Assembly: GCF_002150785.1 (NCBI RefSeq) | Contig: NZ_MTAZ01000003.1 | Span: 1 to 42,367, forward strand | DNA length: 42,367 nt | DNA from: Arenibacter amylolyticus | GTDB lineage: Bacteria; Bacteroidota; Bacteroidia; Flavobacteriales; Flavobacteriaceae | Direction: 5' to 3' | Part shown: positions 13,325 to 14,212 of the stretch, one piece after another | Layout of the letters: each line of letters begins with the position of its first letter | Position numbering within the stretch: position 1 is the first letter of the stretch | Position numbers and translations under genes: made by a program | The notes under the pieces: model-generated | What the model was told of the DNA's origin: nothing | Databases searched by the model: none | The model's input: the letters and a program-made list of their open reading frames with translations, nothing else

Positions 13325-13355
13325 GGACTACAAGATAGCCCTAATAAAAGTTAAC

Positions 13356-13374
13356 AGTAATGGAGGTAATTACT
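13356..13374. promoter_or_regulatory. Inverted repeat upstream of the LacI gene
   Basis: Perfect 6-bp arms AGTAAT and ATTACT separated by seven bases, 32-50 bp before the regulator's start codon. Possible autoregulatory site, but it lacks the central CG usual in LacI operators. Confidence 0.25.
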
Positions 13375-13396
13375 ATAAATTAAAGTTTCAGTCACA

Positions 13397-13455
13397 AATC
13401 CCTCCGTCTTCACTAAAGCGAAGCCACCTCCATTTTCTAGGGGGAAGGTGCTTTT
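13397..13455 (-). repeat. Folded repeat copy A1
   Basis: Reading on the minus strand from AAAAGC: a first hairpin with CACCTTCC and GGAGGTG arms, then GGCTTCG..GAAG forming a second small hairpin, then ACGGAGGGATT. It is a near-copy of A2 (13962-14019), sharing CCCTCCGTCTTC and GAAGCCACCTCC, and is inverted relative to B1. It overlaps the DUF559 stop codon. Confidence 0.8.
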
Positions 13456-13834
13456 ATTTATTGATTGCTTTTTCCTTAAAATTCATTCTAATTTCTTTTA
13501 ATACCGATTCTAAGTTATCAAAAACCATCTTATTCTCGAATCGAATGACTGTGAAACCTAATCCACTTAAGTAAGCAGTTCGTCTTTCATCGTATTCCCA
13601 TGCTGTAGAATTCTGATGTACTTCTCCGTCAAGCTCTATTATCAATTTATCCGATGCCAAATAAAAATCCACAATATAATTTCCAATACTATGCTGCTTT
13701 ACAAAATTCTTTCCATCAAGTTTTTTTGCCCTTAGATACTTCCATAAAAATGCTTCCGCAGGCGTTAAGTTCATTCTTAAATCCTTTCTAGATTTTATTA
13801 ACTCTTTTCTATTATGGATAACAATCTTCTTCAT
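13454..13834 (-). CDS. DUF559 endonuclease-like protein
   Basis: 126-residue DUF559 (PF04480) protein, a family with a Vsr-like PD-(D/E)xK nuclease fold. The N-terminal LIKSRKDLRMNLTPAEAFLW is the family's typical start, and the core NYIVDFYLASDKLIIELDG supplies Asp56, Glu67, Asp69 and His73, the expected metal-site residues; the C-terminal half has YLSGLGFTVIRFEN. So the nuclease site appears intact. Its biological role is unknown. It is alone between inverted folded repeats and has no methyltransferase or restriction partner, which argues against a simple restriction system. Confidence 0.88.
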   Translation of the reverse strand: MKKIVIHNRKELIKSRKDLRMNLTPAEAFLWKYLRAKKLDGKNFVKQHSIGNYIVDFYLASDKLIIELDGEVHQNSTAWEYDERRTAYLSGLGFTVIRFENKMVFDNLESVLKEIRMNFKEKAINK

Positions 13835-13847
13835 GGTTAATCACTTT

Positions 13848-13903
13848 AAAAGCTCCCCTCTTTTTAAAAGAGGGGTGTCCAACGCGTTGGACGGGGAGAT
13901 TAG
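13848..13903 (+). repeat. Folded repeat copy B1
   Basis: AAAAGCTCCCC start, a perfect 21-bp palindrome (13855-13875, CCCCTC..GAGGGG arms), then a perfect 16-bp palindrome GTCCAACGCGTTGGAC (13877-13892), then GGGGAGATTAG. CTCCCC can pair either with the inner GGGG or with the terminal GGGGAG, giving alternative folds. Same architecture as A1 and A2 read in the other direction. Confidence 0.85.
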
Positions 13904-13961
13904 ACTCGCCAATGTTTGAACTTAAAAAAATATTGGATCATCCGTAACAGTCTGCACCACC

Positions 13962-14019
13962 AATCCCTCCGTCTTCGCTATCACGAAGCCACCTCCTTTT
14001 AACCAAAGGGAGGAGCTTT
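13962..14019 (-). repeat. Folded repeat copy A2
   Basis: On the minus strand AAAGCTCCTCCCTTT, loop, AAAAGGAGG, then hairpin CTTCG-tgatag-CGAAG, then ACGGAGGGATT. Near-identical to A1 in both ends and hairpins; aligned with B1 it shares AAAGCTCC at one end and ACGGxGxGAT at the other. Confidence 0.8.
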
Positions 14020-14100
14020 AAACTATTTTACCCCATTTCTTAACTCCCGTTCGATTGTCAAACCTTTACGTATTTAGATCCCATTTCTTCCTAGTTATTT

Positions 14101-14150
14101 TTCCACTCTATTCTAAAGAGGTGTATTCAATGCAATAGACGGGGAGATGA
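14101..14150 (+). repeat. Folded repeat copy B2 (diverged)
   Basis: CTCTATTCTAAAGAG forms the first hairpin; GTGTATTCAATGCAATAGAC replaces the second palindrome with weaker TATT/AATA arms; the end GACGGGGAGAT is identical to B1. The AAAGCT end is not recognisable. Confidence 0.6.
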
Positions 14151-14212
14151 AGCAAGAACTGGTTTAATTTTCAATAAACCCTAGAACATCTCTTGTACCC
14201 TAGACCAAAACC

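Follow-up and report, generated by a model that had tools for sequence, protein, structure and literature searches.

The closest described counterparts of the locus analysed here are the REP and REPIN sequences with their RAYT (TnpA-REP) proteins. These are short foldable repeats, often in facing pairs; the enzyme gene lies amid its own repeat type, and other copies are dispersed without the gene (PMC3733652 for part of these features). The CGTC-tagged REPs are recognised by a CGTC tag, an 8-9 bp stem that starts with A/T pairs and a CCA tail. In Di Nocera et al. 2013 (PMC3733652), Bacteroidetes are listed for these repeats, and the authors found no dedicated transposase.

TM_ECO are intrastrand triplex motifs, described in 23 copies in E. 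coli (Holder et al. 2015, PMC4666352). A hairpin is followed by a third block that mirrors one of its arms; the motifs occur in inverted pairs and at variable loci, and the names PIT and Box C are used alongside TM in that article. The triplex forms as a single strand in vitro, and in vivo footprinting gave no support. The accessible text links no mobility gene to the motifs, and neither ycjD nor an endonuclease or nuclease is mentioned in its main part.

On the protein side, YcjD was taken as a known PD-(D/E)XK member by Kosinski et al. 2005 (PMC1189080), and the accessible parts of the literature on the DUF559/YcjD family give no established function. Caulobacter VsrA, with a DUF559 domain, has been proposed as a Vsr-like mismatch-repair enzyme, with SOS in a methylase mutant (Matthey et al. 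2026, PMC12907096). A DUF559-containing gene of Thermosynechococcus has been placed among the EDxHD homing endonucleases in work that deals with inteins (PMC9403480), and in Legionella pneumophila repeated DUF559-transposase segments are mutational hotspots and partners in long-range recombination (PMC12308824). The last two reports fit a mobile nuclease, and neither mentions flanking triplex repeats in the parts available to us; the Legionella segments also differ from our locus in being larger and in holding a transposase. We found no DUF559 paired with short flanking repeats in the accessible parts of the open-access papers on DUF559; the status of the unit described below as a new kind of element rests on this negative result.

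Here we analyse a window of 42,367 nt from Arenibacter amylolyticus (GCF_002150785.1, contig NZ_MTAZ01000003.1, positions 1-42,367, forward strand), by which we mean the whole stretch of DNA studied. It holds a gene for a predicted one-domain nuclease amid triplex-type repeats, which makes this protein family a concrete candidate partner, E. coli included, for a long-puzzling class of bacterial repeats.

A DUF559 gene among four repeat elements

The central gene of the unit encodes a member of the DUF559/YcjD family (PF04480), on which profile, sequence and structure agree; its profile score is 112.1 bits against a Pfam cut-off of 20.6. The gene is complete, as was stated at first pass, and its residues Asp56, Glu67, Asp69 and His73 are invariant across 59 aligned sequences. 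Besides DUF559, Pfam reports only a sub-threshold MTES_1575 match in the protein, and no HUH tyrosine transposase (Y1) domain; its NCBIfam match falls below the cut-off. In a genome-wide profile search this is the sole full-length DUF559 of the genome, a second match covering only profile positions 67-108 within a 166-codon frame. The gene is under purifying selection, as estimated from four orthologues: dN/dS is 0.06-0.12, with dS near 1 for the pairs involving the window.

The AlphaFold2 model of the protein (pLDDT 85.9) is closest to 3hrl, a DUF559 protein (E 1.2e-8), then to the EDxHD homing endonuclease I-Bth0305I (3r3p, 4.6e-5). Vsr (1cw0) is a weaker fold match (E 0.019), ranked below PvuRts1I and a mitoribosomal chain. 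At the level of the model, these matches agree with the Vsr-like nuclease fold named by the first-pass annotation: the protein is predicted to be a PD-(D/E)XK (Vsr-like) nuclease, and would cleave DNA. Unlike I-Bth0305I and Vsr, it is encoded between repeats, and no intron, intein or mismatch-repair context is apparent in the window.

The repeats bracketing the gene are confirmed, and the arrangement is larger than first described (Table 1). Two copies had been noticed; A2 and B2, upstream of the gene, bring the number to four, all between xylA and lacI. The homology of A1 and B1 and their facing each other across the gene hold, as does the overlap of A1 with the stop codon; B1 starts ~12 nt upstream of the start codon. 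The main stem of A1, which is imperfect, adjoins the stop codon and the main hairpin of B1 adjoins the start, both with the third block outward, and A2 lies tail to tail with B1, ~57 nt apart. The claim that both members of the first pair are folded does not stand for A1: folding is better than in shuffled sequences for B1 and A2, and no better for A1 and B2.

Table 1. Features of the unit. R1 is a covariance model trained on 22 elements from the window's genus, all four window copies included; fold z compares folding with shuffled sequences.
Feature	Position	Strand	Remarks
xylA-lacI interval, holds whole unit	13325..14212	.	congeners empty or partly filled
Repeat element A1	13397..13456	-	R1 54.5 bits; fold z -0.36; mirror block 5 nt
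DUF559 gene	13454..13834	-	126 aa; predicted nuclease fold of Vsr/PD-(D/E)XK type; Pfam PF04480 E 1.5e-32
Repeat element B1	13846..13903	+	R1 66.4 bits; fold z -3.76; mirror block 7 nt
B1 main hairpin, CCCCTCTTT...AAAGAGGGG	13855..13875	+	
B1 small linker hairpin, GTCCAACGCGTTGGAC	13877..13892	+	
B1 third block GGGGAGA	13893..13899	+	reverse (mirror) of 3' stem arm AAAGAGGGG
Repeat element A2	13960..14024	-	R1 65.5 bits; fold z -2.15; mirror block 5 nt
Repeat element B2, decayed	14094..14151	+	R1 40.2 bits; fold z 0.43; mirror block 2 nt

The copies are concentrated at this gene. In the whole 3.985 Mb genome the exact core pattern has 5 matches, 4 of them at the DUF559 gene, and the reversed-pattern control has 0. 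R1 gives 20 matches in the genome, 4 of which lie less than 700 bp from the gene (binomial P ~2e-10, with neighbouring copies treated as independent). Within the window alone, a looser pattern with 3 mismatches falls short of significance, with 2 matches against 0.49 expected and as many in 11/100 shuffles, and an Rfam scan of the window gave no family at its threshold.

Layout of the repeats

Aligned across the genus, the elements share one order of parts, in which a GTG-like joint connects the main hairpin to a second, small one, with GAC and a purine block after it. For most elements this block reads as the 3' stem arm reversed; in another subfamily the corresponding pair is GGAAGGGG against AGGGGAAGG. 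Read from the sequence, this layout is that of an intrastrand triplex. The third block matches its own stem arm at 142 positions summed over 22 elements, compared with a shuffled mean of 87 and maximum of 125; when the blocks were dealt out 20,000 times, 0 trials reached the observed value, which is no strict probability since the elements are related.

The same tendency is seen at 94 other DUF559 loci. Among near hairpins (n=234) the mirror match exceeds the direct one in 93, the direct exceeds the mirror in 13 and 47 are ties; the figures for far hairpins (n=190) are 27, 8 and 11. Exact mirrors of at least 7 nt occur in 50/246 near against 16/489 far hairpins. Direct blocks are likewise enriched near DUF559 (32/246 near, 14/489 far), and a triplex-type hairpin with an exact mirror of at least 7 nt lies within 400 bp of the gene at only 26/80 and 7/14 loci. 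Most of the repeats look triplex-type rather than like plain REP hairpins.

The elements of the window share their general features with TM_ECO, from which they differ by a small hairpin where the published pattern has 3 nt (PMC4666352, in part). They also share those listed above for REP/RAYT. The DUF559 unit lacks both the HUH domain and the GTAG tag and is therefore not a member of the REP/RAYT systems, although it may work like one; it further departs from them by its PD-(D/E)XK-type fold and by the mirror block in most repeats. GTAG is found in none of the 22 elements on the given strand and in 2/22 on the other, there in the flank outside the hairpins.

By reading, the linker hairpin in the window has CGTC before it and CCA-like bases after it on the other strand, which may point to the CGTC-tagged REPs; the stem is shorter in the A type. 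Repeats of the form CGTCATT..AATCC, our rendering of the CGTC REP, found no support as a DUF559 partner: across 63 loci, none lies near the gene and 1 lies far from it.

In L202, L214 and L215, near position 1500, the intergenic mosaics that carry DUF559-type elements also contain another palindromic repeat, CGTCATTGCGAG or its complement GCAATGACG. In L012, L013 and L028, alternating elements are arrayed on both sides of DUF559, with a period of ~220 nt.

Association of gene and repeats across bacteria

Searching the window's genus yielded 34 DUF559 matches at 1e-12 or better. At 19/19 stand-alone loci inspected, palindromic repeats lie beside the gene (by eye), some of them one-sided; three of the matches outside these loci are in leuS. 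Up to five stand-alone copies occur per genome. The repeat type goes with the protein subfamily: three separate DUF559 subfamilies each have their own repeat, on one or both sides. Two of the genus loci, L019 and L020, hold more distant subfamilies with repeats of the CCCCCTNGCCCCC and CTCCCCTCT types, which R1 misses or barely detects.

Outside the genus, 14 of 46 PLSDB records matching the window's protein were inspected by eye; palindromic repeats, facing or single, lie close to the gene in every one of the 14. These records come from Cyanobacteriota, Deinococcota and Pseudomonadota. A larger, mostly proteobacterial set was formed by the best 80 of 453 relatives in named genomes, picked on protein similarity alone. 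We counted perfect hairpins of at least 8 bp within 400 bp of the gene, with windows in the same loci as controls. Two or more hairpins are present at 64/75 DUF559 loci with sufficient flank, against 64/904 control windows; the other 11/75 have fewer than two. Repeated 15-mers cover at least 40 nt at 41/75 loci against 21/904 controls. These two measures superseded a 12-mer repeat statistic that is noisy in GC-rich genomes; with it, the DUF559 segment tops every control in only 33/74 cases.

In the window's family we sampled 40 of 71 listed stand-alone genes. Their flanks show two or more hairpins in 20/40 and repeats in 28/40, and R1 matches below 1e-4 in 21/40, 13 of these on both sides. Counting any repeat signal, 35/40 are positive and 5/40 have none. 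The first-pass annotation had named DUF559 genes elsewhere without such flanks as an observation that would speak against it; flanking repeats at 64/75 genome loci and 35/40 family loci point the other way.

DUF559 inside coding sequences

The domain also occurs in frame inside larger genes: leuS, for leucyl-tRNA synthetase (Pfam on L009, L010 and L277), recG (Pfam on L283) and metH, for methionine synthase, assigned by the surrounding residues. Cases without a Pfam run were assigned by reading flanking residues. The window's family holds leuS cases in L009, L010, L023, L267-L271, L274-L280 and L282, recG cases in L283-L286 and, by reading, metH cases in L272, L273 and L281.

These genes were taken as a pure negative control, a use that was given up: their outer flanks are near-empty, yet hairpins lie inside the reading frame, and part of the set became positive evidence. 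Two or more hairpins are found in the outer flanks of 0/20 and repeats in 1/20; R1 matches below 1e-4 occur at 0/20, with weak ones (0.001-0.01) at four of 20. Within the reading frames, taken from 20 of 23 listed DUF559 frames of at least 800 aa, we count 25 GC-rich hairpins in 5,400 nt of domain boundary, against 9 in the other 52,751 nt of these frames. Such hairpins stand at one or both boundaries in 14/20 cases, at both in 9, and are absent from the boundaries in 6/20, including all three in metH.

That the repeats are ordinary hairpins, terminators or common intergenic repeats which lie near short genes by chance in variable intergenic regions, seems to us very improbable. The elements are indeed mostly intergenic, and some genomes carry them without any DUF559. 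Yet the excess survives matching for non-coding content: in bins of 0-100, 100-200, 200-400 and >400 nt, hairpins accompany 33/38, 16/18, 13/17 and 5/5 of 78 DUF559 loci, against 41/665, 14/134, 4/84 and 5/26 controls. The contrast of 0/20 with 20/40 for hairpins, and of 1/20 with 28/40 for repeats, between the outer flanks of in-frame genes and those of stand-alone ones also speaks against chance, as do the mirror-block signal, the grouping of four of the five genome-wide core matches at one gene and the boundary enrichment inside coding sequence.

Filled, decayed and empty sites

The xylA-lacI interval was read in 18 genomes of the genus. It measures 888 nt in the window, with four elements and the gene, and 766-773 nt in three congeners with an element pair and the gene (G005, G008 and G015). 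The 342 nt of G002 hold elements and what remains of the gene, a C-terminal part, and G013 has 259 nt, with an element pair and no gene; G016, G006 and G009 retain a single element. Six genomes have 123-124 nt and no elements (G001, G004, G007, G011, G012 and G017), and G003, G010 and G014 are likewise without elements. Empty sites, which had been proposed at first pass as something to look for in orthologous intervals, do exist, besides decayed and filled alleles.

At leuS, the 18 genomes divide into three filled alleles (G012, G013 and G017), one solo element, one decayed element, seven empty alleles of 31 aa and six alleles of intermediate length that are unclassified. In G012 the two ends of the insertion are exact inverted copies of each other over 30 nt, the right one being CCCCCTCCTTGGGAGGGGGCAGGGGGGAGG; the left end in G013 is a near copy of the right. 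The solo element, in frame and without nuclease, is that of G005, and the decayed element belongs to G002. By eye, we found no clean target-site duplication. Presence and absence at the same site, with defined ends, is thereby observed at both leuS and xylA-lacI. The strongest argument for repeats and gene travelling together comes, in our view, from the leuS alleles; the solo element could also be a pre-existing target.

The latter possibility belongs to a different explanation, in which DUF559 is a free-standing homing endonuclease that lands in pre-existing triplex repeats, themselves spread by replication slippage or by another enzyme. We regard it as rather unlikely. It would account for the solo element in G005, and it draws on I-Bth0305I as the best fold match outside the family, on the assignment of the Thermosynechococcus gene to EDxHD homing endonucleases (PMC9403480, in part), on weak matches of the protein to homing models in PADLOC and PHROGs, and on five phage relatives, of which two are annotated homing endonuclease and one HNH. 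The two are H50 and H51, from Rhizobium phages RHph_TM61 and RHph_TM39. Against it stand the separate repeat types of the three DUF559 subfamilies in the genus and the way in which repeat number follows gene number (Spearman 0.81, below). The ends of the G012 allele weigh against it as well: homing into one element would need a duplication to leave exact inverted copies over 30 nt.

Co-occurrence at the genome level

In 199 genomes of the family, R1 matches are found in 51 and DUF559 (1e-12) in 66, with both in 35 (odds ratio 8.3, p 2e-9, phylogeny uncorrected). For stand-alone DUF559 the table with R1 reads 32, 19, 18 and 130 (odds ratio 12, p 1e-11, phylogeny uncorrected): the gene is present in 32/51 R1-positive and 18/148 R1-negative genomes. 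Among the 18 genomes of the genus, element number tracks the number of stand-alone genes, tallied by hand with broken copies included (Spearman 0.81, phylogeny uncorrected). Element counts may be lower bounds, since scoring covered at most 150 candidates per genome in the genus search and 26 in the family search.

The link between repeats and DUF559 is not strict. No DUF559 at 1e-12 is found in 16/51 R1-positive genomes. The richest of these, G030, has 22 elements and carries a broken DUF559 with no R1 element in that locus; G212 has 17 elements and no DUF559 even at 0.01, and the remaining 14 have one to eight elements each. A further genome, G193, combines 17 elements with in-frame DUF559 only. 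The expectation that repeats would be enriched where DUF559 occurs is borne out by the odds ratio of 12, and its second half, that they would be absent where DUF559 is absent, is not. The opposite outcome, a similar repeat density in genomes without the gene, does not agree with the counts for stand-alone DUF559.

The distribution also bears on the idea that DUF559 is a host enzyme, either a Vsr-type repair nuclease or a structure-specific enzyme whose task is to clear folded DNA, with the repeats being regulatory or accidental. Vsr is among the fold matches, weakly, VsrA of Caulobacter was proposed to act in mismatch repair (PMC12907096, in part) and the gene is under purifying selection. We nevertheless hold this idea to be improbable, given the patchy occurrence of the gene: ycjD is present in 3,365/5,426 complete E. 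coli genomes, and a stand-alone copy in 50/199 family genomes. A mobile gene would better account for as many as five stand-alone copies in one genome of the genus and for the in-frame insertions into unrelated genes. As a suggestion only, the damage linked to VsrA could alternatively reflect cutting at repeats.

A putative minimal mobile unit

On sequence grounds, the comparison shows gene and repeats together in distant bacteria, varying together, and jointly present or absent at given sites. The reading that we consider moderately probable is that the locus is a minimal mobile unit, made up of a DUF559 nuclease gene and of triplex-type repeats that face each other and form its ends, and that it works in a manner similar to REP/RAYT. 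The first-pass annotation had suggested a REP-like mobile unit with a nuclease in the RAYT role. The gene-repeat link and the alleles agree with this suggestion; its plain REP hairpins give way to repeats that are mostly of the triplex type.

In such a unit, the DUF559 nuclease would recognise its own class of repeat, probably folded as single-stranded, cruciform or triplex DNA at the replication fork, and would nick or cut there. Repair of the break could then copy the unit or its ends, by homing-like or break-repair copying and not by HUH transposition. Elements that stand alone, and tail-to-tail pairs lacking the gene, would be non-autonomous copies. If true, this would be a type of mobile element whose enzyme lies outside all known transposase and recombinase families. 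It would give DUF559 a function, and it would explain how leucyl-tRNA synthetase, RecG and methionine synthase of the window's family came to contain a nuclease domain.

E. coli ycjD and the published triplex pattern

A broader claim, for which we judge the chances evenly balanced, is that stand-alone DUF559 proteins, YcjD included, are dedicated enzymes of bacterial intrastrand triplex repeats in Bacteroidota, Cyanobacteriota, Deinococcota and Pseudomonadota. They would form a new class of mobile elements of ~0.5 kb, with triplex-forming ends and with in-frame entry into essential genes (leuS, recG and metH), where they would be tolerated as an extra domain.

In E. coli the DUF559 gene ycjD lies in the sapF-fabI interval (H132-H190), and in one record (L053) a single exact match to the published TM pattern stands ~170 nt downstream of it. 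The window has 0 matches to the exact TM_ECO pattern. Where E. coli strains lack ycjD, the sapF and fabI pieces stayed apart in the search; the eefRABCD operon is reported to occupy the place of ycjD in such strains (PMC12817139, in part). One E. coli comparison matched few extra places, perhaps because the motif is masked, and another gave no support for a dose effect of ycjD: there are 3-6 extra matching places with the gene and 2-6 without, and these are not clean motif counts.

The published pattern is present in 23/30 DUF559-positive genomes, and the reversed control has 0 matches in all 30. These genomes were hand-chosen and non-random, taken from the 80 loci, and all carry DUF559. The highest number, 470 exact matches on both strands, is found in G238, the genome behind L132, which is labelled Pseudomonas citronellolis. 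In Variovorax guangxiensis (G229), 20/33 matches are arranged tail to tail, as ten pairs with 40-49 nt between the members.
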